33,522 nt of DNA. It comes from Clostridia bacterium (GTDB lineage Bacteria; Bacillota; Clostridia; Christensenellales; Aristaeellaceae). Both the position numbers and the translations under genes were made by a program. Shown here in pieces: positions 36-17,564 of this stretch (position 1 is its first letter; every line of letters starts with the position of its first letter). The notes under the pieces are model-generated. The model ran no database searches, was not told the origin of the DNA, and saw nothing but the letters and a program-made list of their open reading frames with translations. Location of the stretch: NCBI GenBank assembly GCA_017938695.1, contig JAGBBA010000037.1, positions 1-33,522 of the forward strand. The letters run 5' to 3'.

Positions 36-164
36 AATCCTTTATCTCATCCAGCAGATCGCTCTGCCAGACTAACTCATTCGGAATCATCTGTCTACTA
101 TTTCTTGCGTTTCTCGCTTCTGTATCGTTTTCAAGGTTCGGCCGCTCTCGGTGAGAGCTTGTAC

Positions 165-297: not shown

Positions 298-846
298 TCA
301 TGCGTGCTGCTTTGCGTCATTTCCGTTCGCCAGTTGCTTTTCGACAGCCTCCAGCAGTGCTTGTGGAATAACACCCATCCGACTTTTCCCTATCATGATC
401 GCCGCTGTTTTGGACACATAGCAGGTCGTGGCGATTTCCTCCGGCTGCATCCCTTCGACCGCAACCTGCGGGCAAAGCAGATGGCCTGCAAAGCAGTTGG
501 CCTCCGCTTCATCCGCCACCGCATCCTCTATATGATGAAGCAAAATGTGTCCCAGCTCATGGGCGAGGGTGAAGTTGAGCCGGGCCGGGTTGCCGCCCTC
601 CCGGTAGCACACCACATAGCGTTCGCCGCCCCGCACGGTAAAGGCATCCGCCTCGCCGCAGCGGCGGTCGAAATCAGCTTCCGTCATGCACAGTTCCTCC
701 GCTGCCTGCTGAAAGGTATACACCACCGTGTTCCTGCATTTGTGAAGAATCTCCAGCGGCCGCACCGGCAGGCTTGTAATCCTCAGCCGCAGCAGACAGC
801 GGTACGCCAGCGTGGCGGCTCGGTCATAATCCGGCTGGCGGATCAT
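298..846 (-). CDS. ImmA/IrrE-family metallopeptidase
   Basis: This 182-residue protein has a zinc-peptidase motif HELGH at residues 96-100, followed by EAEAN near residue 115 and a C-terminal helical part. That is the pattern of ImmA/IrrE (COG2856) proteins, which cleave or inactivate a partner Xre repressor in phages and mobile elements such as ICEBs1. The start at 846 overlaps the stop of the upstream repressor gene as ATGA, so the two are translationally coupled. Pairing with an Xre repressor supports a role as anti-repressor protease that induces the island, perhaps after DNA damage. The family is clear; the target and trigger are inferred. Confidence 0.88.
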   Translation of the reverse strand: MIRQPDYDRAATLAYRCLLRLRITSLPVRPLEILHKCRNTVVYTFQQAAEELCMTEADFDRRCGEADAFTVRGGERYVVCYREGGNPARLNFTLAHELGHILLHHIEDAVADEAEANCFAGHLLCPQVAVEGMQPEEIATTCYVSKTAAIMIGKSRMGVIPQALLEAVEKQLANGNDAKQHA

Positions 847-1181
847 GGCTGATCCTCCTTGCCGAAGGCATGCTCGAACAGTGCCCGGCCCACTGCCAGG
901 TATTTCTCCTGCTCGGCAGGGGTGAGCTGGCGGAACGCACGGGTCATGATGGTGATGTTGGCATCCTGGTCCCCGGCCCGCACCGGCGGCTGATGGTCGC
1001 ACAGCTCGTCAATGGACACGCCGAAAATGGTGGACATCTTCCGCAGAGCAGGAATATCCGGCTGGGACTGCCCGTGCTCCCACTTGTGCACCGCTGTGGC
1101 AGAAATGCCCAGCAGCTCGCCCAACGCCTGCTGGGAAAGCCCCTTCTTTTGCCTGAAAAACCTGATGCGATCCGCGTACAT
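843..1181 (-). CDS. Xre-family HTH repressor (cI-like)
   Basis: This 112-residue protein begins with a typical helix-turn-helix: RQKKGLSQQALGELLG and ISATAVHKWEHGQSQPD within the first 45 residues. The rest is a short C-terminal region without a LexA-like autoprotease domain. The start at 1181 is chosen because GAGGTG lies seven bases upstream on the minus strand; an earlier start at 1208 has no such site. It is divergent from the virion module and translationally coupled to the ImmA-type gene, so it is the likely master repressor. It probably binds the repeated CAACTTTT sites upstream and regulates both divergent promoters. Confidence 0.9.
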   Translation of the reverse strand: MYADRIRFFRQKKGLSQQALGELLGISATAVHKWEHGQSQPDIPALRKMSTIFGVSIDELCDHQPPVRAGDQDANITIMTRAFRQLTPAEQEKYLAVGRALFEHAFGKEDQP

Positions 1182-1199
1182 ACCTTTCACCTCATATGG

Positions 1200-1228
1200 A
1201 TTATACAACTTTTAGTTAATAATATCAA
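1200..1228 (-). promoter_or_regulatory. Repressor promoter (minus strand)
   Basis: On the minus strand a -35 box TTGATA (1228-1223) is separated by 17 bases from a perfect -10 box TATAAT (1205-1200). It points at the repressor gene at 1181, leaving a very short leader. One CAACTTTT operator candidate (1206-1213) lies in its spacer, so autoregulation is likely. Confidence 0.8.
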
Positions 1229-1267
1229 GCAACTTTTCGTGAATTTTTTATCTTGACATCAACTTTT
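1206..1267. promoter_or_regulatory. Three CAACTTTT operator repeats of the lysogeny switch
   Basis: CAACTTTT occurs at 1206-1213, 1230-1237 and 1260-1267, all in the same direction. The first is inside the spacer of the repressor promoter, the second between the two promoters, and the third inside the spacer of the rightward promoter. Three repeated sites spread over two divergent promoters match a lambda-like switch. Binding by the adjacent Xre protein is inferred. Confidence 0.65.
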
Positions 1268-1281
1268 CAGCGGTATATAAT
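1253..1281 (+). promoter_or_regulatory. Rightward early promoter
   Basis: A perfect -35 box TTGACA (1253-1258), a 17-base spacer and a perfect -10 box TATAAT (1276-1281) drive transcription into the late regulator gene at 1339. The start site should be near 1288, inside a palindromic region. Such a consensus promoter must be tightly repressed, which fits the operator repeats that overlap it. Confidence 0.9.
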
Positions 1282-1284
1282 AAC

Positions 1285-1314
1285 CGCAAGTTAATCTTGC
1301 GAATATTTGTTCGC
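1285..1314. promoter_or_regulatory. Twin palindromes downstream of early promoter, second LexA-like
   Basis: Two adjacent palindromes occupy the start-site region. The first is CGCAAG-TTAAT-CTTGCG at 1285-1301, with perfect arms. The second is GCGAA-TATTTG-TTCGC at 1299-1314. The core of the second, CGAATATTTGTTCG at 1300-1313, differs at one arm position from the Firmicute LexA pattern CGAAC-N4-GTTCG. Both are likely repressor sites; which protein binds is not shown. Confidence 0.55.
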
Positions 1315-1338
1315 TTATGGATAAGGAGGCTATCACTG

Positions 1339-1776
1339 ATGACCAATGCAGCATTTCTTAAGGCTTATCGTGATCTTCACCAGGAGTTGGCCGTGATGGA
1401 ACGCCATCTGGCCATGTGCGGCACCACAGGCTGCCCCACGGGCGTGCGCACTTCGCGGTACGATGCGCTCCCCCGCGGCACCAACAACGGCACAGCCGCG
1501 GCCATTCAGCATCAGGAGGGCGTGGAAGCCGCCGTACAGCAGCTGCGCGATAACCTGGCAGATATGGATACCACCTTCCAGGCTCTGTTGCCCCGGGCCA
1601 GAAACTACCGCGACCGGTGCATTCTGCGGCAGTATTATCAACTGGGCCAGACCGATGCCCAGGTGGCCGAGTGTCTGTGCGTCAGCGTTCGGCATGCCAA
1701 CCGGCTGCGCAGCGAACTGCTCACCCACCTGGACAACCCGGCCAGCATGTCCACCGCCGTCGTTGCGGGTCCGTAA
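1339..1776 (+). CDS. RinA/ArpU-like or DUF1492-like phage late regulator
   Basis: This 145-residue protein is the first gene from the early promoter. The start at 1339 follows AAGGAGG by about nine bases. The N-terminal half is charged and helical. The C-terminal half (about 95-135) reads RCILRQYYQLGQTDAQVAE then CLCVSVRHANRLRSELL, a helix-turn-helix like sigma-70 region 4. Small proteins of this type lie just before the terminase in many Firmicute phages and activate late transcription. Its position before a second promoter at 1763 fits that role. It could instead act with the terminase, because the small terminase next door lacks its own HTH. The exact family is not certain. Confidence 0.6.
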   Translation: MTNAAFLKAYRDLHQELAVMERHLAMCGTTGCPTGVRTSRYDALPRGTNNGTAAAIQHQEGVEAAVQQLRDNLADMDTTFQALLPRARNYRDRCILRQYYQLGQTDAQVAECLCVSVRHANRLRSELLTHLDNPASMSTAVVAGP

Positions 1777-1791
1777 CCAACGTGATATGAT
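1763..1791 (+). promoter_or_regulatory. Putative promoter of the virion module
   Basis: TTGCGG (1763-1768), a 17-base spacer and TATGAT (1786-1791) form a reasonable sigma-A promoter overlapping the end of the regulator gene. The predicted start is near 1798. A LexA-type palindrome lies just downstream at 1808-1821. The -35 box is only partly consensus, which fits a promoter that needs an activator. Confidence 0.55.
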
Positions 1792-1807
1792 GGCATCGTG
1801 GAAAATA

Positions 1808-1821
1808 AGAACAAATGTTCT
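1808..1821. promoter_or_regulatory. Candidate LexA (SOS) box upstream of terminase
   Basis: AGAAC-AAAT-GTTCT is a perfect palindrome in its arms and matches the Firmicute LexA pattern GAAC-N4-GTTC, including the purine/pyrimidine preference of the centre. It lies about ten bases after the predicted start of the 1763 promoter, where a bound repressor would block transcription. Binding by LexA rather than by the island's own repressor is inferred. Confidence 0.6.
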
Positions 1822-1834
1822 CAATTCCACACAA

Positions 1835-1861
1835 AGCGTTCCGCTTCTCCGGCGGAACGCT
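1835..1861 (+). other. Stem-loop before the small terminase gene
   Basis: AGCGTTCCGC (1835-1844) pairs perfectly with GCGGAACGCT (1852-1861) around a seven-base loop, followed by ATTTCATTT and the ribosome site of the terminase gene. The U-run is too broken for a strong terminator. It may act as an attenuator or an RNA-stabilising or processing hairpin. Confidence 0.6.
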
Positions 1862-1885
1862 ATTTCATTTGAAGGGAGGTCTTTC

Positions 1886-2164
1886 ATGGCCAAACGACGC
1901 GCCGCGGATGACATCGCCACGCCGGAGGAAGTGCTGCGCACCTTCACCCAGATCATGCGCGGCGAGATGACCGAGGCCTCCGGGCGCAAGGGTGCATCCG
2001 GCGAGGAGATCGCCCTGCCGCCCAAGGTGTCGGAGCGGAGCAAGGCTGCGGAGCTGCTGGGCAAGCGTTACGGCCTGTTCAGCGAAAAGGAGCCCGGGGC
2101 CAAACCCAAGGCCGAGCTGGCTGCTGAGATCGAGCAGGCCATGCTGGAGATGCATGGATCGTGA
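1886..2164 (+). CDS. terS: Phage terminase small subunit, lacking N-terminal HTH
   Basis: This 92-residue protein begins at 1886 after GGGAGG. Its two recognisable parts, ATPEEVLRTFTQIMRGEMTE and SERSKAAELLGKRYGLF, match the C-terminal oligomerisation half of Terminase_2-type small subunits. The usual N-terminal helix-turn-helix that binds the packaging site is absent, and the sequence upstream in the same frame does not look like one. The gene overlaps the large subunit by 11 bases, as expected for a terminase pair. Either recognition of a specific start site has been lost, or the HTH protein encoded at 1339 supplies it. Family assignment is fairly secure; the consequence is inferred. Confidence 0.75.
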   Translation: MAKRRAADDIATPEEVLRTFTQIMRGEMTEASGRKGASGEEIALPPKVSERSKAAELLGKRYGLFSEKEPGAKPKAELAAEIEQAMLEMHGS

Positions 2165-3389
2165 CGCTCTCTCCCTGATGGTGCACCGTCCTGCCCAGGT
2201 GGCCCGGTGGTGCGGTTCCAAGCTGCTGACCGATGACCTCCACGGTGCCTGGATGCAAAAGATGCTCCTGGGCCGGGAGGACATGACGCTCCTGGCGCAC
2301 CGCGGCTCCTACAAAACCACCTGTCTGGCCGCCGCCATGGCCATCAGCATGTGCGTGTATCCCATGCGGAACATGCTCTTCATGCGCAAGACCGACGGCG
2401 ACGTGATCGAGATCATCCGGCAAGTCAAGCTGTTTCTGCAATCCGATGCCATGCTTTTTCTCACCCAGAAATTATGGGGCGAGCCCGTGAACATTCTCAG
2501 GGCCGATCAGTTCAGCATCACCACGGATTGCTATGCAGCCTGCCGGGGCGCAGCGCAGCTCCTGGGCCAGGGCACGCGCGGCAGCCTTACCGGCAAGCAT
2601 GCGGATATCATCATCACCGACGACATCGTGAACCTGCAGGATCGCATCAGCCCCCAGGAGAGGGAGCACACACGCGCCATCTACCAGGAGCTGCAAAACA
2701 TCCGCATTCCCGGCGGACGGATCATCAACACCGGCACACCCTGGCACCCTCAGGACGCCATTTCCCTCATGCCCCGGGTGGAGAAGTACGACTGCTACCG
2801 CACCGGGCTGCTCACGCCGGACAAACTGGACGAACTGCGGCGATCCATGTCGCCCATGCTCTTCGCTGCGAATTACGAATTGAAACACATTGCTGACGAC
2901 GACGCCCTGTTCGCCCAATCCCCCGGCTTTTTTGATGATCCCCTGCTCCTGCGGGACGGCATTGCCCATGTGGATGCAGCCTACGGCGGCAGCGACTGCA
3001 CCGCCCTCACCTGTGGCAGGCGCGAAGGCGACACCATGTATCTGTATGGACGGTTGTTCCCCGGACACATCGACACGGTGATGGAAGATATCCTCGCCTG
3101 CTGCGACAAACTGCTCTGCGCCCCCGTCTGGTGCGAAACCAACGGCGACAAGGGCTACGTCGCCCGGGAGCTGCGCCGCCTGGGCGGACAGGTGCGCACC
3201 TACCAAGAACGGCAGAACAAGCATTTGAAAATCTCCACCCACCTGCGCAAGTGGTGGCCGAAGGTGCGCTTTCTCCGCACCACCGACCCTGCCTACATCG
3301 ATCAGATCCTCGCCTACTCCGCCACCGCCGCCCACGACGATGCACCCGACTCCGCTGCCTGTGTCATCCGCCTTTTAGACCGCACCTGA
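2154..3389 (+). CDS. terL: Phage terminase large subunit
   Basis: This 411-residue protein is the packaging motor. Near residues 49-56 it has a Walker-A-like HRGSYKTT, and at 151-157 the Walker B segment DIIITDD. The C-terminal nuclease domain has the RNase-H-like start HVDAAYGGSD with acidic residues near 274 and 281. The start at 2154 lies inside the end of the small-subunit gene and has GGAG upstream. Both the ATPase and nuclease halves appear intact, so the packaging enzyme should be functional. Terminases of this kind drive DNA into the procapsid through the portal encoded next. Confidence 0.92.
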   Translation: MDRDALSLMVHRPAQVARWCGSKLLTDDLHGAWMQKMLLGREDMTLLAHRGSYKTTCLAAAMAISMCVYPMRNMLFMRKTDGDVIEIIRQVKLFLQSDAMLFLTQKLWGEPVNILRADQFSITTDCYAACRGAAQLLGQGTRGSLTGKHADIIITDDIVNLQDRISPQEREHTRAIYQELQNIRIPGGRIINTGTPWHPQDAISLMPRVEKYDCYRTGLLTPDKLDELRRSMSPMLFAANYELKHIADDDALFAQSPGFFDDPLLLRDGIAHVDAAYGGSDCTALTCGRREGDTMYLYGRLFPGHIDTVMEDILACCDKLLCAPVWCETNGDKGYVARELRRLGGQVRTYQERQNKHLKISTHLRKWWPKVRFLRTTDPAYIDQILAYSATAAHDDAPDSAACVIRLLDRT

Positions 3390-3412
3390 TGCACCAAATC
3401 AAGGAGGCAACC

Positions 3413-4762
3413 ATGTTTACCGACATTACCTATCAGGACTGGCAGTCCGCCGCCGACCGCGACAGGCTGCTTCTGTCCGCCATCGACCGCTACAAGGCTT
3501 CCCGCGATTTCTCCCGCGCGCTGGAAGCCGGCGATTACTTCCGCGGCTGCAACACCGCCGTTGCCGGGAAAACCGTGCTCCGCGCCCGCAAGATCGAGAC
3601 CCGCGACGCCTCCGGCCGCAAGCGCGTGCGCACCGGCACCGAGGATGTGGTGGGCAACCGCATCGGCTCGGGCTTCCTGTTCCGCTTCATCACCCAGCAG
3701 AATCAGTTTCTGCTGGCGAACGGCTGCATCCTCAAGGATGCCGAAACGAAGGCCTGCCTGGGCGCAGATTTCGACCACCAGCTGGCCAGCCTGGGCGAGC
3801 GCGCGCTGATCCACGGCGTAAGCTGGGGCTTCTGGAACGTGGATCACCTGGAGGTGCTGGAAGCCGCCCGTGACGCCCGTTCCGGCTTCTTCGCCCTGCT
3901 GGACGAAATGACCGATGAACCCATGGTAGGCGTGCAGTTCTGGCAGCTGAACGCTGACAAGCCCCTGTACATCCGCCTGTTCGAACTGGACGGCGTGACC
4001 GTTTTGCGCATGGAAAAGGGCACGCTGATCCCAGTGATGCCCAAGCGGCCCTATGTGGTCACCATGCGTTCCGACGCCTTGGGGGACGAGATCATCTCCC
4101 AGGAGAATTACACCCGGCTGCCCGTCATCCCCCTGTTTGCCAACACCGAGCGGCAGAGCGAACTCACCCCGGCCATCAAAGCCAAGATCGACGCCTACGA
4201 CAATATCCTTTCCGATTTTGCCGACAACCTCGACAGGGCCAACGATGTTTACTGGGTGCTGAACAACTTCGGCGGCACCACCGACGATATCGCCCAGATG
4301 CTGGAGGAGATCCAGCGCATCAAAGCCGTGGCCAACCTGTCCGACGGCAGCGGCTCTTCCTCCACCGCCGAGCCCCACACCATCGAGGTGCCCTACGCCG
4401 CCCGCAAAACCGCCCTGGATATTCTGGAACGCGCCCTCTACCAGGACTACATGGCCCTGAACGTCGACGCCCTCACCGGCGGCAGCCTGACCAACGTGGC
4501 CATCCGCACCGCCACCGCCAACCTGAACCTGAAGGCCGACCGCTACGAGTGGCAGGTGTTCCGCTTCGTGCAGCAGCTGCTCTCCCTGCTGGGCATCACC
4601 ACCGAGGAGATCCGCTTCCAGCGGCAGTGCATCGCCAATGAATCCGAAACCGTGGCGGATATCGCCGCCATGCGCCCGGACATTGACCGCCGCACCGCCC
4701 TGAAGCTGAACCCCTACATCCAGCCAGAGGAGATCGACACTCTGCTTGAACAGGAGGCGTAA
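3413..4762 (+). CDS. Phage portal protein (SPP1 gp6-like)
   Basis: This 449-residue protein starts at 3413 after AAGGAGG. Position after the large terminase, length, and segments such as VVGNRIGSGF, LPVIPLFAN and the helical stretch around DNILSDFADNLDRANDVYW match SPP1-type portals. The portal forms the dodecameric ring at one capsid vertex through which DNA enters and to which the connector and tail attach. It is followed by a 107-residue neck-like protein rather than the common minor head protein. No truncation is evident. Confidence 0.88.
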   Translation: MFTDITYQDWQSAADRDRLLLSAIDRYKASRDFSRALEAGDYFRGCNTAVAGKTVLRARKIETRDASGRKRVRTGTEDVVGNRIGSGFLFRFITQQNQFLLANGCILKDAETKACLGADFDHQLASLGERALIHGVSWGFWNVDHLEVLEAARDARSGFFALLDEMTDEPMVGVQFWQLNADKPLYIRLFELDGVTVLRMEKGTLIPVMPKRPYVVTMRSDALGDEIISQENYTRLPVIPLFANTERQSELTPAIKAKIDAYDNILSDFADNLDRANDVYWVLNNFGGTTDDIAQMLEEIQRIKAVANLSDGSGSSSTAEPHTIEVPYAARKTALDILERALYQDYMALNVDALTGGSLTNVAIRTATANLNLKADRYEWQVFRFVQQLLSLLGITTEEIRFQRQCIANESETVADIAAMRPDIDRRTALKLNPYIQPEEIDTLLEQEA

Positions 4763-4765
4763 ACC

Positions 4766-5089
4766 ATGTTCATTTCCCGCCTGCCGGAGTTCCTCGCCCG
4801 CCTCGACCTGCCCCTGGCCGCCCAGGCCATGGGCGATGCCGCTATTTCCGCCGTGCGCACACAGATGCTCACCGGCTACGACCGTCCCGTGCACCAGACC
4901 GGTGCCCTTCTGAACGACGTGTCTTGCGCCGTGCAGGGCAGCACGGCCGTCATCGGCAATACCTTGCCCTATGCCGTCCCCGTCCATGATGGAACCTGCC
5001 GCACAGCAGGCCGCCCCTACCTGGCCGACGGCATCCTCAACCATGCAGATGCCATTCGCCGCGCCGCTGCGGATGCTCTGCGCCAGTAG
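4766..5089 (+). CDS. Putative HK97 gp10-like neck or minor capsid protein
   Basis: This 107-residue protein begins three bases after the portal stop, with AGGAGG upstream. The pattern TGALLNDVS, then VIGNTLPYAVPVHDGT and AGRPYLADGI resembles the gp10/neck family, in which a beta-rich protein ends in a G-T-x-x-x-x-RP-(F/Y)-L motif. Such proteins normally lie after the connector genes; here it lies between portal and scaffold, which is unusual. A minor capsid role is the alternative. Confidence 0.5.
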   Translation: MFISRLPEFLARLDLPLAAQAMGDAAISAVRTQMLTGYDRPVHQTGALLNDVSCAVQGSTAVIGNTLPYAVPVHDGTCRTAGRPYLADGILNHADAIRRAAADALRQ

Positions 5090-5109
5090 GAAGCGTGATA
5101 TCCGCTTCC
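5089..5109 (+). other. Stem-loop before the scaffold gene
   Basis: GGAAGCG (5089-5095) pairs with CGCTTCC (5103-5109) around a seven-base loop, followed by TGTTTTCATA. It separates the portal-side genes from the scaffold and capsid genes. It could be a weak terminator or a processing/stability hairpin that uncouples the highly expressed capsid message. Confidence 0.5.
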
Positions 5110-5161
5110 TGTTTTCATATACATTTCGTTTGCGCAACGAACCGCGCAGAAAGGAGTCCCC

Positions 5162-5728
5162 ATGGCACTGACCCGTAAGCTGCTCAAGGATATGCAGCTG
5201 GAAGATGAAAAGATCGAGCAGATCATCGCCGCCCATGTGGCCACCATCGAAGCCCTGAAAGCCGAGCGCGATGCCGCCCTCACCGAAAACGAGGAGCTGC
5301 ACGTCCAGGTGGAGCAGCTTTCCACCGCCAATCAGTCCGCCGCCGAGGTACAGGCGGCCTTCGATGCCTACCGCACCCAGATCGAATCCACCCGCCAGTC
5401 AGAGAAAGCCATCGAACTGATCCGCCTGGCCATGCTGCAGGCCGGCTGCAACGAAAAGGCCATCGGCCTGCTGATCCAGACCATCGACCCCTCCACCCTG
5501 GAAATGGAAAACGGCCAGGTGAAGAACGGCGAGGCCATCATCGCCGAGCTGCGCGCCAAGCACGCCGCCTTCTTCGCCCAGCCCGTCCGCATGGCCGCCC
5601 CGGCCGTTCGTCCCCCTGTCCCCACGGGCGGTGCGCTGACCCGTGAGGATATCTCCCGCATGAGCGCAGATGAAATCAACCGCAACTGGAACGCCGTGAA
5701 GGGCGTCCTTGCGAAAGGAGCGATTTAA
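5162..5728 (+). CDS. Phage scaffolding protein (GP20-like)
   Basis: This 188-residue, mostly helical protein begins at 5162 after AAAGGAG. Residues about 10-75 form a coiled coil rich in E, A, L and Q. The C-terminus, LTREDISRMSADEINRNW, is the conserved tail of Firmicute scaffold proteins that contacts the capsid protein. Its position immediately before the capsid gene supports this. The scaffold directs procapsid assembly and leaves before DNA packaging. No protease gene is present, so scaffold exit probably needs no cleavage. Confidence 0.82.
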   Translation: MALTRKLLKDMQLEDEKIEQIIAAHVATIEALKAERDAALTENEELHVQVEQLSTANQSAAEVQAAFDAYRTQIESTRQSEKAIELIRLAMLQAGCNEKAIGLLIQTIDPSTLEMENGQVKNGEAIIAELRAKHAAFFAQPVRMAAPAVRPPVPTGGALTREDISRMSADEINRNWNAVKGVLAKGAI

Positions 5729-5731
5729 CGT

Positions 5732-6535: not shown

Positions 6536-6540
6536 GGTGG

Positions 6541-6680
6541 AACGCCAGAGGGGACGCTGTCCCCTCTGGACTCCCCTGCGAAGGGTCTTCGACCCTTTCG
6601 AAACCCTTCTTCGTGGGCAGTTACTTGGCTGTTTTCTCCCTGGTGTCACGGTGCGCAACGGGCGCACCGCGACGCAGGGG
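6541..6680 (+). repeat. Dispersed hairpin-array repeat, copy A
   Basis: The order is: hairpin CCAGAGGGG/CCCCTCTGG (6545-6569), spacer ACTCCCC, hairpin around GAAGGGTC/GACCCTTTC (6579-6600), AAACCC, TTCGTGGG, a variable stretch, then GGTGTCACGG followed by GTGCGC/GCGCAC and CCGCGACGCAGGGG (to 6680). The same modules in the same order recur at 17159-17562, 27245-27409 and 33251-33379. It follows the capsid stop codon in coding orientation and separates capsid from connector genes. Confidence 0.85.
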
Positions 6681-6693
6681 AGTGGCACATTTC

Positions 6694-6725
6694 ATTCCGA
6701 ATTCCGCATTCTTAATTCCGAATTA
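6694..6725 (+). repeat. AT-rich 32-bp repeat, copy 1
   Basis: ATTCCGAATTCCGCATTC then TTAATTCCGAATTA. The reverse complement of a near-identical unit is at 23101-23135; the two differ mainly at three central bases. It contains partial internal symmetry from repeated ATTCCGAA. It sits between repeat copy A and the ribosome site of the next gene. Confidence 0.75.
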
Positions 6726-6742
6726 GTTTATGGAGGTTTCCT

Positions 6743-7186
6743 ATGACCATCAGCGTCCCTGATCTCATGCGGGAGACCCGCAATTTCTTTCCTTCCGCGG
6801 CCCTGGATGCGTCCTGGACGCTGCAGGGCGGCATGCTGACGCCTTCCGGCGGGCTTTGCCCCGGCGACTGGGTGGCAGTGACGGGTTCCCTTTACAACAA
6901 CGGTGTCTATCAGCTGGCGGATGGGGTGTCCATTCCCGGCGCAGTGGATGAAAGCTGGACCGGCCGCGTGTGGCTCCTGTCGCCCCCGGCAGATTTCCTG
7001 GCACTAGCCGGTGAGGTTATTGCCTGGGCGGCTCAGCAGGGTTCCCAGCAAGCAGTGAAGGAGTCCTTCGGTGCTTACAGCCGCGAGCTGGCCACCGATG
7101 CCGCTGGCAAGCCCATTACCTGGCAGGCGTATTTTGCCGAGGCACTCAAGCCCTACCGCCGCATGTACACGGAGGTGAAGCTGTAA
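6743..7186 (+). CDS. Head-tail connector (adaptor) protein
   Basis: This 147-residue protein begins at 6743 after TGGAGG. Segments such as SGGLCPGDWVAVTGSLYNNG, WTGRVWLLSPPADFLALAGE, SFGAYSRE and KPYRRMYTEVKL resemble a family found after the capsid gene in many clostridial siphophages, where gp6-like adaptors lie. A small beta domain is followed by a helical C-terminal half. It probably binds under the portal. The next gene overlaps by one base (TAATG), so the connectors are coupled. Confidence 0.6.
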   Translation: MTISVPDLMRETRNFFPSAALDASWTLQGGMLTPSGGLCPGDWVAVTGSLYNNGVYQLADGVSIPGAVDESWTGRVWLLSPPADFLALAGEVIAWAAQQGSQQAVKESFGAYSRELATDAAGKPITWQAYFAEALKPYRRMYTEVKL

Positions 7187-7530
7187 TGCTTCAGGATTAC
7201 TTTGAGGACTTTATCCTGCTGGTGAGGAACCAGGCTGCCGACGACATGGGCGGCACGGATGAATCCTGGCAGGAGGGCGTCACCTTCCGCGGCGGCGTGA
7301 CCCAGGTAGTGGGCAAGGAGGCTGATATCAGCGGCCTCATGGCCCTCAAGACCGTGCCCATGCTGCTCCACGAGTGGGACGTGACCTTGGTGCAGGGCGA
7401 CCGCATCCGCCGCGTTCGTGACGGCGCGGAGTTCCGCATCACTGGCAACAGCAGCGACATGCGCACGCCGCCCGTGGCCAGCACGACCTATTGCCAGGTG
7501 CCCGTGGAAAGGCTGGTGACCGCCCCGTGA
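7186..7530 (+). CDS. Head-tail joining / stopper protein
   Basis: This 114-residue protein overlaps the previous gene by one base. It is beta-rich, with GGVTQVVGKEADISGLMALK, LLHEWDVTLVQGDRIRR and FRITGNSSDMRTPPVAS. This arrangement resembles the short head-tail adaptors (SPP1 gp16-like stoppers) that close the portal channel after packaging. Position between adaptor and tail-completion genes supports the call. The sequence match is by pattern only. Confidence 0.6.
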   Translation: MLQDYFEDFILLVRNQAADDMGGTDESWQEGVTFRGGVTQVVGKEADISGLMALKTVPMLLHEWDVTLVQGDRIRRVRDGAEFRITGNSSDMRTPPVASTTYCQVPVERLVTAP

Positions 7531-7532
7531 GC

Positions 7533-7907
7533 ATGAAGCTGTACCAGAAATCCGTGGTTGCATTCTTGAAGGAAACCGGCCTGCCGGTGTACATCACCGG
7601 CCAGGTGCCCAAAGGGGCCAGCTTTCCCTACATCACGCTGACCACCGCCTATGCGCCCTTTGCCCAGTCGGCCGGGCTGACCGTCACCGCCTGGTTCTGC
7701 GAGGATCACGCCCATACCCGTTGCGTCGAACTGATGGACGAACTGTGCGCCGCCATCCCCGAAAGCGGTGCCATGCTGCGCTATCACGGCGGCATGGCGG
7801 TTCTGCGCCGGGCCGCAGGCAGCTTCATCACCCTGGTGGGCGATGAAAACGACCGCCGCATCCTGGGCGGCCGCATGCGGCTGAACGTCCACCTCTACGA
7901 TGCCTGA
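7533..7907 (+). CDS. Tail completion / tail terminator protein
   Basis: This 124-residue protein begins at 7533 (MKLYQKSVV), with a GTG alternative at 7527 that overlaps the preceding stop. The N-terminus KSVVAFLKETGLPVYITGQV, then FPYITLT and the ending GRMRLNVHLYDA resemble small tail-terminator proteins (SPP1 gp17 type) that cap the tail tube where it meets the head. It is the last connector gene before the tail tube. Confidence 0.6.
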   Translation: MKLYQKSVVAFLKETGLPVYITGQVPKGASFPYITLTTAYAPFAQSAGLTVTAWFCEDHAHTRCVELMDELCAAIPESGAMLRYHGGMAVLRRAAGSFITLVGDENDRRILGGRMRLNVHLYDA

Positions 7908-7917
7908 TCTCTCCCCT

Positions 7918-7943
7918 GGGCGGAGGCCGCGCGGCTTCCGCCC
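7918..7943 (+). other. Stem-loop before the tail tube gene
   Basis: GGGCGGAGGCC (7918-7928) pairs with GGCTTCCGCCC (7933-7943), with one G-T pair and a GCGC loop. TTATTTCAATAGAAGGAG follows, containing the ribosome site of the tail tube gene. Its position and trailing sequence resemble the hairpin at 1835-1861. It may be a weak terminator or an RNA processing/stability element. Confidence 0.55.
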
Positions 7944-7970
7944 TTATTTCAATAGAAGGAGTGTCCTGCC

Positions 7971-8561
7971 ATGACCACCTCTTTGACCCCCTCCACCTTT
8001 GAAAATCTACAGCTCAACGCAGGGCTTTTCCTGCGCGGATTCGACTTTTCCGCCGCCGCGTCCGCCGCCCAGCTGCGCCTGCTGGTGGCCGACGCCATTG
8101 CCGACGGCACCTGTGTCATCGGTGCCACCCGGGGCGGCGGCACCTTCACCTGCACGCCTGCCATCCGCAACATTGAGGCCGACGGCCTGCGCTCGCCTGT
8201 GGTGGGCTCCACCGTCAACGACGGCTGGACCGTGAAGCTCACCGGCACCATGCTGGAGATCACCCCCGATAACTTCGCTTCCGCCCTCATCTGCGCCGAT
8301 GTGCAGACCGCCGGCAGCGTCACCACCATCCGCGCCCGGGCAGATATCGCCGAAGAGGATTACATCCCCACCCTGTGCTGGATCGGCGACACCAGCCGCG
8401 GCTTTGTGCTCATTGAGCTGACCAACGCCCTGAACCTGAAGGGCGCGGCCTTCACCTTTACCGACAAGGGTGAGGGCACCCTGCCCTTCGAATTCCAGGC
8501 CCACCAGGATCCCAGCGACGACCCGGCCTACGCGCCCTTCCGCATCGTCTTTTTCGATTGA
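7971..8561 (+). CDS. Major tail tube protein
   Basis: This 196-residue protein begins at 7971 after GAAGGAG. It is beta-rich, with GGGTFTCTPAIRNIEADG, VVGSTVNDGWTVKLTGTML and the ending LPFEFQAHQDPSDDPAYAPF, as in clostridial siphophage tube proteins (the aspartate-rich ending with FQAH is characteristic). It should polymerise into the tail tube. The gene has its own upstream hairpin and a strong ribosome site, which fits a highly made protein. Confidence 0.78.
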   Translation: MTTSLTPSTFENLQLNAGLFLRGFDFSAAASAAQLRLLVADAIADGTCVIGATRGGGTFTCTPAIRNIEADGLRSPVVGSTVNDGWTVKLTGTMLEITPDNFASALICADVQTAGSVTTIRARADIAEEDYIPTLCWIGDTSRGFVLIELTNALNLKGAAFTFTDKGEGTLPFEFQAHQDPSDDPAYAPFRIVFFD

Positions 8562-8571
8562 GGTGTTCGGC

Positions 8572-8937
8572 ATGAAGCTTAGCCAACTCACCACCCGGCA
8601 GCTGGCCGATGTGCTGGTGCAAATCACCCCGCCCCTGTGCCGCATCGCCCGGGACGAGCGCACCCTGGCCATCCTGGACGACCTGTCCTTCTCCGGCCTG
8701 GAGGCGCAGCCGCCCCTGCGCGCTGCCACCCAGCTGTGGGAAAAGCTTTTGCCCCTGCTGCTCACCGACCTGGCGGATGACCTATTCACCGTTTTGTCCG
8801 TGCTGGTGGAAAAGCCGGTGGATGTCCTCCGCGCCCAGCCCGGCCTGACCACCATCACCGACCTGATGTCCATCTGGGACAGCCAGCTCACCACTTTTTT
8901 CACCTCTGCCGGATCTGCGGCGCAGGAGAGATCCTGA
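8572..8937 (+). CDS. Tail assembly chaperone, short form (gpG-like)
   Basis: This 121-residue helical protein lies between tube and tape measure genes, where the tail assembly chaperone pair always lies. The start at 8572 follows GAGGTG. Near its end the reading frame passes over T TTT TTC (8895-8901), a classic -1 slippery heptamer in the correct phase, and the next gene is in the -1 frame. Chaperones of this kind coat the tape measure during tail assembly, and the slip makes a longer fused form. The function rests on position, size and the slippery site. Confidence 0.75.
   Translation: MKLSQLTTRQLADVLVQITPPLCRIARDERTLAILDDLSFSGLEAQPPLRAATQLWEKLLPLLLTDLADDLFTVLSVLVEKPVDVLRAQPGLTTITDLMSIWDSQLTTFFTSAGSAAQERS
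8895..8901 (+). promoter_or_regulatory. Predicted -1 programmed frameshift site
   Basis: T TTT TTC sits in the zero frame of the 8572 gene as ACT-TTT-TTC. A -1 slip continues through CAC CTC TGC CGG with no stop into the frame of the 8940 gene. The product would be about 220 residues. This mirrors the lambda G/GT arrangement. Slippage itself is not shown. Confidence 0.7.
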
Positions 8938-8939
8938 CC

Positions 8940-9233
8940 GTGGTATCCGGCTTTCGTCCCCTGCCCATGGCCGCCCTGCAGGAGGTGCTCCTCCACCGCA
9001 AGGCATGCCAGGCCAAAAAGAGCTACGCCGCGCACCTGACATGGCTCATCGGTGCGCAGCTGTTTGCCCTGGGCGGCGGCAAGGATTACCCAGTGCCGGA
9101 CGTGTTCGCCCTTTTCCCCGATACCACCGCCCCCAGGGATCGCCGCAGTGCCGAGAACATCCGCCAGGATGTGTGGACGCGGCTGACCCATTCCCCTATC
9201 CAATCTGAAAGAAAGGAGACTGACCATGGATAA
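8940..9233 (+). CDS. Tail assembly chaperone, frameshift extension (gpT-like)
   Basis: This open frame encodes 97 residues if started at GTG 8940, three bases after the preceding stop. It is more likely read as the C-terminal extension after a -1 slip at 8895-8901, which adds the residues HLCRICGAEILTV before it. Segments include PLPMAALQEVLLHRKA and HLTWLIGAQLFALGG. It overlaps the tape measure start by eight bases. Independent initiation is possible because GGAGAG precedes the GTG. Confidence 0.65.
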   Translation: MVSGFRPLPMAALQEVLLHRKACQAKKSYAAHLTWLIGAQLFALGGGKDYPVPDVFALFPDTTAPRDRRSAENIRQDVWTRLTHSPIQSERKETDHG

Positions 9234-9726
9234 GCTGTTCGAGCTTTCTGCCGAGTTGACCCTGGACGCCGCTGCATTTCTCCGCGGCCTTGCCCAGGCG
9301 GAGCAAGCCGCCCGCAACGCCACCGCCACCCTGATGCAGCTGCAAGCCTCTGCCCTGGGTTCCTGGTCCGCCGTGGCTGCCAGCATCCGCGCCGCCACCG
9401 AGCAGATGCAGGCCTTTCTCGCCCTGCAAGGCAGCGTGCCTGCCAGTGCCCCGGGCTTTGCCACCGGGTTGGACTATGTGCCCTATGACAATTTCCCGGC
9501 CCGGCTGCACGAGGGCGAGGCCGTCCTCACCAGCCTGGAGGCTGCCCAGTGGCGCAGCGGCCAAAGCAGCCGCCCGGTTGATCTGTCCGGCCTGGGCGAG
9601 GCCCTTGCCGGTGCACTTTCCGGCGTGACTGTGGAGCTGGACGGCCAGACGGTGGGCCAACTGATCACCCCTGCCGTGAGCCGGGGCATCGCCCAGCAAA
9701 CCAAGGCCAGGAGGTACAACGCATGA
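9226..9726 (+). CDS. Tape measure protein, extremely short
   Basis: This 166-residue protein begins at 9226 after AAAGGAG. The N-terminus AELTLDAAAFLRGLAQAEQA resembles the start of tape measures. The segment GLDYVPYDNFPARLHEGEAV (about residues 84-103) is the hallmark near the C-terminus of many tape measures, usually preceded by hundreds of helical residues. Here the long central rod and any lytic domain are missing, yet both ends and the frame are intact. Tail length follows tape measure length, so a tail of only about 25 nm would be expected at 0.15 nm per residue. The gene overlaps Dit as ATGA. It may be an adapted short form or an in-frame deletion. Confidence 0.75.
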   Translation: MDKLFELSAELTLDAAAFLRGLAQAEQAARNATATLMQLQASALGSWSAVAASIRAATEQMQAFLALQGSVPASAPGFATGLDYVPYDNFPARLHEGEAVLTSLEAAQWRSGQSSRPVDLSGLGEALAGALSGVTVELDGQTVGQLITPAVSRGIAQQTKARRYNA

Positions 9727-10487
9727 TGACACGCTACCGCGTCTGGCTGGATGGTCTGGGCCTCCACGACCTTGACCCCTGCCTGATCATCACCGACGTA
9801 TGCGAATCCGCACCGCGCATGCAGATCAAAACCGCCGCCCGCGCCCAGGGCGACGGCCTGGTGTGCACCCGCCGCACCCGGCAAAGTCTGAGCGTCACGG
9901 TGCGCTTTCTCATCCGCGAATACGACCCCATGCGCCGCCAGGGCGTGATGCAAAAGCTCCACGCCTGGGCCCAGGGGAGCTGCCTCACCTTCAGCCACCG
10001 CCCCGGGCAGGAGCTGCTGGTCACCCTGGATGCTTTCCCCACCGTGACCAGCGCGCTAAAGTGGACGGAGGAGCTGTCCATCACCTTCACCGCCTACGCC
10101 CTACCCTACTGGCGCAGCGTTGAGCCCGCCACCCTGGCCACCAATACCTCCGCCGCCATGATGGTGGAAGGCACCGCCCCCTTCGCCCCGGCCGACGTCA
10201 CCGTTACCACCGGCGGCAGCGGCACCACCACCGCCATCACCGTGCAGGCCGGCAGCCATGCCATCACGCTGCAGGGGCTGTCCCTTGCGCCCGGGGCGAC
10301 GGTGGTCTTTTCCCATGATGACCAGGGCGTGCTGCACATCACCAGCGGCGGCGCATCGCTGCTTGATCGCCGCACCGCTGATTCTGCCGACGATCTGCTG
10401 ATGATCCCCGGGCAGAGCAACACCGTTTCCTGTTCCGGCGATCAGCCCCTGACGGCCACTTTCGCCGTGAAGGGGGTGTGGGCATGA
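9723..10487 (+). CDS. Distal tail protein (Dit-like)
   Basis: This 254-residue protein overlaps the tape measure stop. It has an N-terminal beta domain with a segment SLSVTVRFLIREYDPMRRQG near residues 55-75, typical of Dit hub proteins, and ALPYWRS near residue 135 that usually ends the hub domain. The rest is a beta-rich galectin-like half ending in DLLMIPGQSNTVS and FAVKGVWA. Dit forms the ring joining tail tube and fibre. The next gene overlaps it as ATGA. Confidence 0.72.
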   Translation: MMTRYRVWLDGLGLHDLDPCLIITDVCESAPRMQIKTAARAQGDGLVCTRRTRQSLSVTVRFLIREYDPMRRQGVMQKLHAWAQGSCLTFSHRPGQELLVTLDAFPTVTSALKWTEELSITFTAYALPYWRSVEPATLATNTSAAMMVEGTAPFAPADVTVTTGGSGTTTAITVQAGSHAITLQGLSLAPGATVVFSHDDQGVLHITSGGASLLDRRTADSADDLLMIPGQSNTVSCSGDQPLTATFAVKGVWA

Positions 10488-12379
10488 CCCGCCTCCCCCG
10501 CCTGCTGGACGGCAGCATGCAGGAGGTCTGCCGCCTGCACCCTGTCAGCCTGGAATTGGAACTGAACCTCTCACCCCTGTCCACCGCCGTGATGGTCCTG
10601 CCGCCGGACGATCCCGATGTGGCCGTTGGCCGGTTCATTGAGCTTTACACACCCCAGGGCAGCGCAGGGATCTTCCGGGTGGAGCAGGCCGAGCAAACCT
10701 ATACCGGCACCACCCGTCTGCACTTGCAGCACGGTTTGGTCACCCTGGCCGACGGGCTGATCCCCGGCCAGAACGAAGACGGCACCACCGCCTCGCTGCG
10801 GTCCATCCTGACCACGCTTTTGTCCCACCAAAGCCAGTGGACGCTGGGCCAGGTGGACGTCCCCGACACCCTGCTGCTCACCTGGCGGTACGACTACGCC
10901 AACCTGCTGGAATCCCTGCTGTCCATCATGAAGGAGCTCCCGGCCTACCGCCTCGCCTTCGACCAGTCCGCCCTGCCCTGGACGCTGCACGTCCTTGCCC
11001 AGACGGAGGATGACCCCAGCGAGTGCCGCCTGAGCCGCAACCTGGAAAGCCTCACCGTGGAGACCAACCGCAGCGAGCTTTGCACCCGGCTGTACGTCCC
11101 CGGCACAGCGCAGCCCCTCGATGCCGACACCATCGCCCTTTATGGCACCGTGAGCCGCAGCCTTTCCGGCGATGACGATCTGCCCCAGGAAGAGCTGCTG
11201 GCCCGTGGCCGTCAATACCTGGAGGCGCACAAGCATCCCCAGCTGACGGTGTCCCTGCACGCGTTGGATCTCAGCCAGTGCACCGGCGAAAGCCTCGACC
11301 GCTTCACCCTGGGGCATCCCTGCCGCATATGCCTGCCGGAGAAGGGCTCCCCCATTCTGCAGCGCGTGGTGTCCATCGCCTACCCCGATCTGATCGCCGA
11401 TGACCAGCAGCTTCGCCTCACCCTCGCTACCCAGGCACAAACCACCGCCGATGTGTTGTCCAGCCTGATCATCGACACCACCGTGGTCAAAAAGAAGATC
11501 GTTCACCAGGCCGAGGCCATCCGCGACAACAAGCGGCTGATCTTAGAGGCCGAGGAGGCCATCGAGCTGCGCGCCAAGGAGATCTCCCTGATCAGCGAAC
11601 GGCTGGATGTGCAGGCCCGGGATATCACGGTCAACGCCGAAAACATTGCCGCCAATGCAAAGAACATCTCCGTAAACGCCAAAAACATTGACGTAAACGC
11701 CGAGAACATCGCCACCAACGCCAATGCCATTGCTGTGAATGCCAGGGATATCGACTTGAATGCCGAGCGCATTACGGCCAATGCCAACGCGATTTCCGTC
11801 AACGCCCGGGATATCGACGTGAACGCCGAGAACATTGCCACCAACGCTGAGCGCATCACGGCCAATGCCAACGCGATCTCTGTCAACGCCAGGGATATCG
11901 ACGTAAACGCGGAGAACATCGCCACCAACGCCCGGAACATTTCTGTCAATACGCAAAACATCAGCGTGCAGGCACAGAACATCAATGCCAATGCGCAGAA
12001 CATCGCCGCCAATGCCCAGGCGATTTCCCTCAAGGCGGACAAAATCGACCTGCAGGGCTATGTGACCATGCAGGAATTCGAGGCCCTGGAAGGCACGGTG
12101 AACAGTCTTTTCGCTTCCGACCTGGTGGTGCACGGCCTCAGTTCCGACTATGTTACCGCCGGCGAAGGCGACTTCGACAACCTGGTTTTCGGCACGCTGA
12201 ACGGCGTGAACACCGAGTGGAAGTCCCACTATGTGCTCACGGGCATCGGCACCATCAGCCAGAGCAAACGCTACCTGAACGTGCTTCTGGCCGACGGTTC
12301 CTCCGCCGCGCTGGACATTGTGACCAACGTGTCCATTTCCCCCAACGGCACCTACCTCAACTACTTTGGAAAGGCGTGA
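10484..12379 (+). CDS. Tail-associated fibre protein with N@d-type coiled coil
   Basis: This 631-residue protein follows Dit directly. Residues 1 to about 345 form a beta-rich N-terminal hub domain like those of Tal/minor structural proteins (for example LYTPQGSAGIFRVEQAEQTY and the lid region near CRICLPEKGSPILQ). Residues about 360-520 are a long coiled coil, of which 381-520 are 20 exact heptads of the form I-x-x-N-A-x-x. Residues 520-631 form a C-terminal domain beginning IDLQGYVTMQEFEAL, probably receptor-binding or trimerisation. No peptidase motif was seen. It likely forms a trimeric fibre at the tail tip and decides target recognition. The start at 10484 is chosen for the ATGA overlap. 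Confidence 0.78.
   Translation: MTRLPRLLDGSMQEVCRLHPVSLELELNLSPLSTAVMVLPPDDPDVAVGRFIELYTPQGSAGIFRVEQAEQTYTGTTRLHLQHGLVTLADGLIPGQNEDGTTASLRSILTTLLSHQSQWTLGQVDVPDTLLLTWRYDYANLLESLLSIMKELPAYRLAFDQSALPWTLHVLAQTEDDPSECRLSRNLESLTVETNRSELCTRLYVPGTAQPLDADTIALYGTVSRSLSGDDDLPQEELLARGRQYLEAHKHPQLTVSLHALDLSQCTGESLDRFTLGHPCRICLPEKGSPILQRVVSIAYPDLIADDQQLRLTLATQAQTTADVLSSLIIDTTVVKKKIVHQAEAIRDNKRLILEAEEAIELRAKEISLISERLDVQARDITVNAENIAANAKNISVNAKNIDVNAENIATNANAIAVNARDIDLNAERITANANAISVNARDIDVNAENIATNAERITANANAISVNARDIDVNAENIATNARNISVNTQNISVQAQNINANAQNIAANAQAISLKADKIDLQGYVTMQEFEALEGTVNSLFASDLVVHGLSSDYVTAGEGDFDNLVFGTLNGVNTEWKSHYVLTGIGTISQSKRYLNVLLADGSSAALDIVTNVSISPNGTYLNYFGKA
11624..12043 (+). repeat. Twenty 21-bp heptad repeats in fibre gene
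   Basis: The 420 bases divide exactly into 20 units of 21 bases encoding I-x-x-N-A-x-x, such as ISVNARD, IDVNAEN and IATNAER. Some four-heptad blocks (for example ITANANA-ISVNARD-IDVNAEN-IATNA) occur twice nearly identically, so the array probably grew by slippage or unequal recombination. Ile falls at position a and Asn at position d. Confidence 0.92.
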
Positions 12380-12546
12380 TCTTCCTGGACATTCTGCAAT
12401 CCGTGAAAATTGTGATCTATCTGCTGGGGCAGCTGAGCGTTTCCGGCCAGGATGACGTGCGCCGGCTGAATGCCTGCTTCGACCGGCTGAACGCCCTGAA
12501 GCTGCACCTGGAAGCACCGCCCGCAGAAGAACCCCCGAAGGAGTAA
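12376..12546 (+). CDS. Small phage protein of unknown function
   Basis: A 56-residue frame starts with GTG at 12376, overlapping the fibre stop as GTGA, and ends three bases before the holin. The N-terminal half is hydrophobic with KIVIYLLGQLSV; the C-terminal half is helical and ends in PPAEEPPKE. It may be a small tail-tip or lysis accessory protein. No family was recognised. It lacks a strong ribosome site, so it probably relies on coupling to the fibre gene. Confidence 0.55.
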   Translation: MIFLDILQSVKIVIYLLGQLSVSGQDDVRRLNACFDRLNALKLHLEAPPAEEPPKE

Positions 12547-12549
12547 ATC

Positions 12550-12741
12550 ATGGAGCAAAACCGCTTTCTTTCCCCTGTTGTCTGGGCCGCAGCCGCCGCC
12601 CAGGTGCTGGCCCTTATGGTCACCCTCGGGGTGATCGACACCGGCCTGAGCGAGAGCATCAACGCCGTTATCACCAGCCTGTTGCAGCTGCTGGTCACCT
12701 TCGGCGTGCTGAACAACCCCACCAGCAAGGAAAACTTCTAA
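12550..12741 (+). CDS. Holin (phi LC3-like)
   Basis: This 63-residue protein begins at 12550 after AAGGAG. It has two membrane segments, about residues 8-29 and 38-57, separated by a short GVIDTGLSESIN turn, and a polar C-terminus. Pattern and length match small holins of Firmicute phages. It would make membrane holes that release the endolysin encoded next. Its presence means the cluster keeps a way to open the cell. Confidence 0.8.
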   Translation: MEQNRFLSPVVWAAAAAQVLALMVTLGVIDTGLSESINAVITSLLQLLVTFGVLNNPTSKENF

Positions 12742-12746
12742 TTCCC

Positions 12747-12774
12747 GGGGCTTATCCTGAAAAGGGTAAGCCCC
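12747..12774 (+). other. Stem-loop between holin and endolysin
   Basis: GGGGCTTATCC (12747-12757) pairs with GGGTAAGCCCC (12764-12774), with one T-G pair, followed by TTATATT and the endolysin ribosome site. It is a fourth hairpin at a module boundary in this cluster. A weak terminator or translational control is possible. Confidence 0.6.
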
Positions 12775-12795
12775 TTATATTCGGAGATGAGTCCC

Positions 12796-13473
12796 ATGTT
12801 ATCCATTCAAAAGCTTTGCGATGATTTCGAGCAGGCCTTGGGCTGGCCCTATGAGTCCCCCGGCTCCAACGACGAGCACGGGGTGGATTGCTCCGGCCTG
12901 TTTGTGTATGCCTTCCGCCGCCAAGGCGCGAGGATCTACCACGGCAGCAATACCATCTGGCGCAAATACCTCACCAGCAAGGGGCGCATCCAGCGGGAAA
13001 GCCAGCTGAAAAAGGGCATGGCCGTCTTCAAGTGGCGCGAAGAAGGCGATCCCCAGCAGGACGGTCTGGGCAATTTCTACCACATCGGCCTGGTGACCCA
13101 AACCAAGCCCCTGCGCATTATCCACGCCTCCACCAACGGCATGCGCGTCCGTGCCGAGGACGATGCCCATGGCTGGACCCACTGGGGTGCGCTGAAGGGC
13201 GTGCAGTACACCGTGCAGGCACTGATGCCCGAGAGCACCGACCAGCCCGACGACGTCACCGCCCTGCCCATGCTGCGCTACGGTGCACGGGGCAGCGAGG
13301 TGGTGCGCCTGCAGCTGATGCTGCGCAACCTGGACTTCACCCTGGAGCCGGACGGCATTTTCGGCCCCATCACCCGGGAGGTGGTGAAAACCTTCCAGGC
13401 CATGCACCGCCTGGAGGTAGACGGCATCGTGGGCCCGCTGACCTGGGCCGCGCTGGAAGAAACAATTGAATAA
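12796..13473 (+). CDS. Endolysin: NlpC/P60 peptidase plus peptidoglycan-binding domain
   Basis: This 225-residue enzyme starts at 12796, nine bases after GGAG; an upstream ATG at 12787 is too close to that site. Residues 1-145 are an NlpC/P60 cysteine peptidase with the catalytic Cys near 32 in DCSGLFVYAF and the His near 96 in FYHIGLV. Residues about 155-222 are a peptidoglycan-binding (PG_binding_1) domain with the usual DGIFGPITREVVKTFQ and VDGIVGPLTWAAL. It lacks a signal peptide, so it depends on the holin. It cuts stem peptides in the cell wall and releases particles. It is the last gene of the island. Confidence 0.9.
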   Translation: MLSIQKLCDDFEQALGWPYESPGSNDEHGVDCSGLFVYAFRRQGARIYHGSNTIWRKYLTSKGRIQRESQLKKGMAVFKWREEGDPQQDGLGNFYHIGLVTQTKPLRIIHASTNGMRVRAEDDAHGWTHWGALKGVQYTVQALMPESTDQPDDVTALPMLRYGARGSEVVRLQLMLRNLDFTLEPDGIFGPITREVVKTFQAMHRLEVDGIVGPLTWAALEETIE

Positions 13474-13477
13474 CCAA

Positions 13478-13517
13478 AGAGGAGCAGTTCCGCCATGGGA
13501 ACTGCTCCTCTTTTTTT
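13478..13517. terminator. Strong bidirectional terminator at the island end
   Basis: AGAGGAGCAGTTCC (13478-13491) pairs perfectly with GGAACTGCTCCTCT (13498-13511) over 14 bases around a six-base loop, followed by TTTTTTG on the plus strand and TTTGG on the minus strand. It ends the endolysin message and also the convergent GNAT message. Confidence 0.93.
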
Positions 13518-13994: not shown

Positions 13995-13997
13995 GCC

Positions 13998-14915: not shown

Positions 14916-14928
14916 GTTGCCCCTCCTT

Positions 14929-17148: not shown

Positions 17149-17158
17149 ATTACACCTC

Positions 17159-17562: not shown

Positions 17563-17564
17563 CC

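Follow-up and report, generated by a model that had tools for sequence, protein, structure and literature searches.

A window of 33,522 bases, the whole of one contig in a metagenome-assembled genome (MAG; 2.53 Mb, 87.5% complete) of Christensenellales-type Clostridia, carries a cluster of virion genes that we read, with a probability of roughly 0.78, as a domesticated siphophage that became fixed beside an rRNA operon, is inherited with the chromosome and encodes a gene transfer agent (GTA)-like particle. That the cluster has been domesticated is very likely. Because the small terminase (TerS) has lost its DNA-binding domain, the motifs of the large terminase (TerL) are kept and both RcGTA of Rhodobacter capsulatus and FpGTA of Faecalibacterium offer an analogy, the particle probably packs host DNA. 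As the preliminary description of this DNA had it, the cluster is intact, its genes (Table 1) all present in ∼13 kb and supported by PHROG and Pfam matches. Its proposal of a domesticated particle is likewise supported by the junction with the rRNA operon, a host-congruent tree, ratios of nonsynonymous to synonymous divergence (dN/dS) below 1 in close pairs, the lack of an integrase match among the window proteins scanned and the lack of an att-like repeat among those listed. Below, G-numbers denote genomes, L-numbers denote loci or contigs, some of them from IMG/VR, and g3, g5, g63 and g66 are genera.

The cluster begins next to the rRNA operon. The left contig end, base 1 of the window, falls within the 5′ end of a 16S rRNA gene, with the complement of what we take to be the 27F primer site at 10–27; the Rfam SSU model matched the corresponding contig ends of two relatives (L013 and L019) and gave no match to the short 16S piece in the window itself. 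The contigs of most relatives stop at about the same point. MAG assemblies often break at rRNA operons, and the contig ends in relatives are therefore systematic. When window bases 1–150 were aligned to the left contig ends and scored against 20 shuffles, the rRNA leader was found left of the cluster, with a score above the shuffles, in 13 of the 15 other TerL-bearing members of the genus, two of them (G003 and G010) passing on 17–18 bases only; G015 failed, its contig starting at the last bases of the leader. The leader also lies left of the packaging module of G170 (g63), again above the shuffles, and seven IMG/VR contigs passed, having been preselected with the leader already seen. On the right, a metallophosphoesterase gene and/or mnmE is common to seven genus members, G007 and G010 have another flank in common, and the contigs of G003, G013 and G014 do not reach as far as the tail genes. 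Most TerL-bearing members of the genus thus carry the cluster at the same rRNA-side site, and strain-specific presence at varying sites, which had been named as evidence that would refute the GTA proposal, was not observed as far as MAGs can tell.

TerL was found in 16 of 18 genomes of the genus, including the window's own, and a sample of 60 genomes gave 2 clear relatives in other genera of the family and a third match of 30% identity. The capsid protein matched at E ≤1e-3 in 61 of 308 family genomes, 27 of them at ≥45% identity (15 in the window's genus, 10 in g63, 1 in g3 and 1 in g66); the other 34, 19–31% identical, probably belong to other phages. Wider searches matched the capsid in 23 of 396 genomes across the order and 33 of 391 across the class (own and family genomes included). 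In the capsid neighbourhoods sampled outside the family the rest of the cluster was mostly missing, which says little for low-GC contigs, where the codon-usage gene caller applied outside the window, tuned to the window's GC, fails. Portal- and scaffold-like genes accompany the capsid in three such genomes (G051, G926 and G1036), with tape measures of >900 residues in G051 and G926, and these cases look like ordinary phages.

Mobility genes were not detected. Because the first ∼36 bases of the window are the 16S rRNA 5′ end, the interval from the rRNA operon to the repressor genes contains no integrase. Consistent with the preliminary description, no integrase, excisionase or replication family matched among the scanned window proteins (PHROG and Pfam, a few small open frames having been left out of the family scans), and no att-like direct repeat joining both flanks was present among the 20 of 41 repeat families listed. 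The host-type repeat reported inside the cluster was confirmed: at ≤3 mismatches the genome contains 30 forward and 35 reverse copies of its pattern, compared with 0 of the backwards pattern. A second GAATTC/GCATTC-rich short repeat lies at 23100–23126, and such repeats occur on many contigs of the genome.

We next compared a host tree (infB and rpoB) with a cluster tree (TerL, portal and capsid) for 25 genomes. The two have 13 of 22 splits in common, compared with a mean of 0.16 and a maximum of 2 in 1000 label shuffles, and in all 21 Mantel tests of host against cluster distances none of 499 permutations reached the observed r, as vertical inheritance would predict. The synonymous divergence (dS) of the cluster is near the host scale, at 0.13–0.37 between G006 and G012 (infB, 0.14; two genes beside the second locus described below, 0.30–0.31) and 0.31–1.08 between G016 and G017 (mnmE, 0.43; metallophosphoesterase, 0.63). 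dN/dS was 0.01–0.30 in all 17 genes of the closest pair compared, G006 and G012, and 0.12–0.50 in 16 genes between the window and G006, where the seventeenth, a 70-residue lysin remnant, gave 1.12 on a poor alignment; the remnant gave 1.02 between the window and G012. Between G016 and G017 the values were 0.12–0.78, highest in h3 and Dit. Across the 13 pairs of the main set every value was <1 except the two for the lysin remnant, and the tail-tip and lysis genes of the second locus gave 0.12–0.37 between G006 and G012 and up to 0.74 in more distant pairs. The expectation of dN/dS below 1 in virion genes is therefore borne out in close pairs, and reading frames are mostly intact across species at ∼60% amino acid identity.

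Several observations weigh against this reading. The core operon ribF-truB-nrnA-infB-rnpM-nusA-rimP converges on the cluster from the right, and this right junction (lysin to acetyltransferase and ribF) is seen only in this MAG and not in relatives; IF-2 of G004 is 99% identical to the window's over 581 residues, yet G004 has another neighbour beside ribF, and the junction may be a rearrangement or a misjoin. On the rRNA side, G014 lacks the junction, its contig having other sequence there, and the junction was not clear in G019, G021 and G218 or in the 9 g63 packaging loci other than that of G170; two of these 9 (in G178 and G179) start at, or close to, the ImmA gene and are uninformative. 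G002 and G004 lack TerL. Among the splits with support >0.9, 4 in the host tree and 3 in the cluster tree disagree. Between the window and G006, dS is 0.23–1.48 compared with 0.33 for infB, several genes exceeding the host value. One g63 pair gave dN/dS of 0.10–0.55, and two others reached 1.30 where NG86 dS looks saturated; the method is unreliable in these two because dS stays at ∼0.4–0.8 while the proteins differ by up to 60%. The G019 portal gene has an in-frame stop, and the G005 lysin is cut to 91 residues. Finally, the related genomes carrying the cluster are, where records tell, MAGs.

The terminase genes bear on what the particle would package. Terminase_2 (141 positions) is matched over positions 1–138 by the TerS of phages L182 (E 1.5e-35) and L184 (E 1.2e-32), whereas the window's TerS, which most likely starts at 1886 rather than in the longer open frame, matches 54–134 only. 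Positions 1–53 are missing, so that the small terminase was rightly described as lacking its DNA-binding half. In other clusters the match covers 56–134 (L013), 103–134 below the cut-off (L027) or nothing (L024), and the 37 TerS frames called are 71–109 residues long. The first 14 PDB matches of the TerS AlphaFold model (mean pLDDT 71) are SPP1-like small terminases, mostly oligomerization-domain constructs, with a best E of 0.013 and none at ≤0.001. In contrast to this reduction, the TerL motifs, which we take to be Walker A, Walker B and three nuclease motifs, are kept in 18 aligned cluster sequences, picked from 29 TerL-bearing genomes, apart from minor changes at a few positions (for example, in G010, G176 and G180). 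Sequence and model together thus suggest that the packaging machinery has been kept without sequence recognition. An indication that in-frame stops break TerL in many relatives was rejected, as queries from the true start found none in 17 of 17 TerL rows from 14 of 20 genomes, a set outside which most genus members lie. Second TerL copies of 49–56% identity occur in G173 (C71), G177 (C30) and G181 (C21), the last in a phage-like gene row.

The IMG/VR siphophages L281, L182 and L184 look like a free-living sister group of the cluster. Together with Enterococcus phiFL2A and Lactococcus Q33 they have its TerS-TerL-portal-scaffold order, and all three also keep the connectors and tail tube in the same order and, unlike the cluster, the N-terminal domain of TerS. 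Identity is ∼49% to phiFL2A and Q33 in TerL and 61% to L281 in the capsid protein. L281 further encodes thymidylate synthase and a methyltransferase, Q33 an integrase and L182 another capsid.

Compared with these phages, the tail of the cluster has shrunk. The sister tape measures have 461 residues (L281) and a 911-residue frame (L182), whereas that of the window has 166, in agreement with the very short tape measure noted before. The cluster tape-measure profile matches only the two ends of the L182 frame, strongly at 814–910 and weakly at 26–61, and the middle is therefore gone. Lengths are 164–167 residues in the window, G006, G012 and G015, 59–71 by the likeliest starts in G001, G007, G009, G010 and G011, about 64 in L174, at least 58 with the C-terminal motif present in G218, and 45–51 in G172, G173 and G178, where assignment is by position only. 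In G008, L178 and G179, Dit follows within 88 bases of the major tail protein (MTP) gene with no tape measure. In G005, G016, G017 and the IMG/VR contigs L176, L179, L180, L185, L279, L280 and L283, some of which may be one species, h3 stands directly before Dit; the MTP profile, which does detect the window, G008, G011 and G019, gave no match at E 0.01 to the G005, G016, G017, L176, L179 and L185 loci. We propose that the middle of the tape measure was lost first (911 to 166 residues), then all but the last helix (about 59–71 residues, with an ARQRRY-like end); the whole tape measure and lastly the tail tube gene would have followed, Dit docking directly onto the neck. Meanwhile, cluster genes would have scattered over the chromosome and TerS would have lost its recognition domain. 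Docking of Dit onto the terminator is plausible because, according to PMC7296036, the stopper, terminator, tube and distal proteins of RcGTA, whose tail has five tube discs, share a fold. We give an even chance to the joint proposal that one family preserves a series from siphophage to tail-less DNA-packing particle, with TerS domain loss and gene scattering, and that it represents a second Clostridia GTA lineage, from which the packaging observed in Christensenellaceae might originate.

In some relatives, virion genes are also divided among chromosomal sites, although genes on different contigs need not be far apart when the contigs are short. Dit, Tal, lysin, hl1 and holin genes lie at a second site in G004, G006, G012 and G015, next to ecf-type transporter genes (a label from reading the proteins rather than a family call). 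In three of these genomes (G006, G012 and G015) the cluster on the rRNA side breaks off after the tape measure, and in G006 and G012 a 70–75-residue lysin remnant forms its end; G004 has the second site, and searches of this genome for TerL, portal and capsid found none. The window's own genome has part of the ecf neighbourhood without these tail-tip and lysis genes. A tail-fibre-like protein is encoded upstream of Dit in G012 (906 residues; L124 9603–12323, minus strand) and G006 (899 residues) and is absent there in G004. In g63, a packaging module of TerL, portal and orfX, mostly also with helix-turn-helix (HTH)/ImmA and TerS, occurs in G172, G174, G176, G178, G179, G180 and G181, and scaffold and capsid lie on other contigs, with connector, tail and lysis genes where the contig reaches. 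The module has other genes on both sides in G172, G174, G176 and G180, and in G173 and G177 the portal is apart from TerL, adjoining a tail and lysis locus. A self-transmitting phage could not exist with its virion genes divided in this way. L026, L027 and similar TerL/portal loci, considered as decayed remnants, proved to be such packaging modules with capsid modules elsewhere. A link between the second locus and the mnmE site through a common metallophosphoesterase was also discarded, the two being probably paralogues.

On the preferred reading, the HTH/ImmA pair would hold the cluster off and orfX would turn on the virion operon. TerS without its recognition domain may then let TerL fill small heads with host DNA at random, and particles would be released by holin and endolysin. 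A short-tailed to tail-less tip of Dit and Tal, with a fibre in some relatives, might bind the next cell for delivery.

Instead of transferring genes, a domesticated particle could pack host DNA and kill close kin, like PBSX of Bacillus subtilis in role. In keeping with this, Dit, Tal and fibre are among the fastest changing genes, the lysis genes are kept, some genomes have a second Dit elsewhere, and the FpGTA authors leave the option open (PMC12946183). However, a tail-based killer needs the opposite of the shrinking tails and of the loss of the tube gene from the cluster in one subclade, and we consider such a role unlikely. PBSX has a sheath and contractile tail, whereas no family of this kind was among the cluster's PHROG hits, and the TerL motifs are kept. 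As characterized in PMC12946183, PBSX is a defective particle that packs host DNA in a Gram-positive host.

Less probable again is an old defective prophage, functionless and in slow decay. The PG-binding remnants that follow the tape measure of G006 and G012, the split portal of G019, the cut lysin of G005, the genes missing from G021 and the short tails would fit it, but at both loci close pairs have dN/dS values well under 1, frames are mostly intact even at ∼60% amino acid identity and the tree is host-congruent. A still mobile temperate phage or satellite targeting rRNA operons, which would explain the constant rRNA-side junction and the true sister phages in IMG/VR (L182, L184 and L281), is highly improbable given that no integrase or replication gene was found in the window's cluster, that both flanks are common across species, that cluster divergence is near the host scale and that several relatives carry the genes on separate contigs, flanked by other genes on either side.

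Among known systems, FpGTA I and II of Faecalibacterium (Borodovich et al., Nat Commun 2026, PMC12946183) are the closest case and resemble the cluster in having a TerS without an obvious DNA-binding domain together with TerL, portal, scaffold and capsid in one operon of a Clostridia host. FpGTA has a second operon of baseplate, fibre, holin and endolysin, comparable to the second sites in relatives here, and its particles have no identifiable tails. The likeness is one of description; what the present cluster adds is a view of its descent, of its site at an rRNA operon, of its sister phages and of a tail lost in steps. PMC12946183 also reports GTA-like packaging in Christensenellaceae in 3 of 25 events and names MAGs of other groups (Onthomonas, Gemmiger and F. 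prausnitzii) as those in which genes were sought. In the literature searched there was no report of this cluster, and only PMC12946183 joins "gene transfer agent" with "Christensenell". RcGTA (PMC7296036 and PMC7947584) is like the cluster in its virion genes (which in RcGTA serve host-DNA packaging), a TerS described in PMC7947584 as without a specific DNA-binding domain, and a short tail, with a tape measure of ∼216 residues (113+83+20). Unlike RcGTA, the cluster combines an SPP1-type portal and an SPP1-like TerS with a Gram-positive type of host, and its tape measures are shorter or missing. The helper loci of RcGTA lie elsewhere in the genome.

Few lineages are known to have GTAs, which are difficult to distinguish from dead prophages. 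The present family combines sister phages with many host species, a site that is fixed and a gradation of tail loss, and the sister phages offer a clean before and after for the loss of TerS specificity. It can thus be asked which phage parts drop as a virus becomes a host organ, whether DNA delivery needs a tail and whether such particles exchange genes among gut Clostridia.

Table 1. Features of the window, in order of position
Feature	Position	Strand	Basis or remark
16S rRNA gene, 5′ end	1..36	-	leader reaches to about 147
ImmA/IrrE-type M78 metallopeptidase, 182 aa	298..846	-	PF06114, E 2e-9
Cro/C1-type HTH repressor, 112 aa	843..1181	-	PF01381, E 6e-15
orfX, putative late activator (ArpU/sigma-70 region 4-like), 145 aa	1339..1776	+	weak HTH_23 match
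Small terminase TerS without N-terminal DNA-binding domain, 92 aa	1886..2164	+	
Large terminase TerL, 411 aa	2154..3389	+	ATPase and nuclease motifs kept
SPP1-type portal, 449 aa	3413..4762	+	PF05133, E 2.5e-32
Neck/tail completion-like protein	4766..5089	+	phrog_5, E 1.7e-6
Capsid scaffold	5162..5728	+	PF06810
Major capsid protein, 267 aa	5732..6535	+	phrog_267, E 2.9e-54
Host-type GAATTC-rich short repeat	6699..6718	.	between capsid and connector genes
Head-tail connector h1	6743..7186	+	phrog_1236
Head-tail connector h2	7186..7530	+	PHROG family of unknown function; role by gene order
Connector/probable tail terminator h3	7533..7907	+	weak phrog_17405; role inferred from gene order
Major tail (tube) protein MTP, 196 aa	7971..8561	+	phrog_885, E 5.8e-32
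Tail assembly chaperone-like 1	8572..8937	+	family of unknown function; position
Tail assembly chaperone-like 2	8940..9233	+	position; relatives
Tape measure, 166 aa	9226..9726	+	ends of 911-residue phage tape-measure frame
Distal tail protein Dit, 254 aa	9723..10487	+	weak phrog_33, E 9e-4
Tail-associated protein Tal, NAxxI heptad repeats	10484..12379	+	PF06605; repeat family D1
Holin, 63 aa	12550..12741	+	phrog_297, E 2.7e-6
Endolysin, NlpC/P60 and PG_binding_1	12787..13473	+	
Host flank: acetyltransferase, ribF, truB, nrnA, rbfA, infB, rnpM, nusA, rimP	13521..22839	-	rbfA by position only; acetyltransferase by weak rimI match

Further features of individual genes are as follows. orfX is kept in relatives, and the L182 phage homologue shows weak matches to DUF1492 and Sigma70_r4. 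L022, L024 and L025 lack ImmA and HTH; between the rRNA leader and orfX they have a TTGACA/TATAAT-like promoter, spotted by eye, and this subclade may have lost repression. A Pfam search of the window's own genome for the portal type PF04860 led nowhere, the cluster portal being of the other type. A 261-residue protein of unknown kind lies between TerL and portal in G014 (L018 1744–2529), and in genus g5 (L030/G021:C21), which keeps TerL and portal, a 557-residue secreted-looking protein stands between them, with a weak capsid match elsewhere. The 21-base tandem pattern at 11582–12064 in Tal, encoding seven-residue repeats of NAxxI type, probably forms a coiled coil. Beyond the host flank, a 662-residue protein at 29870–31858 carries at least five PG_binding_1 repeats resembling the C-terminal domain of the endolysin.

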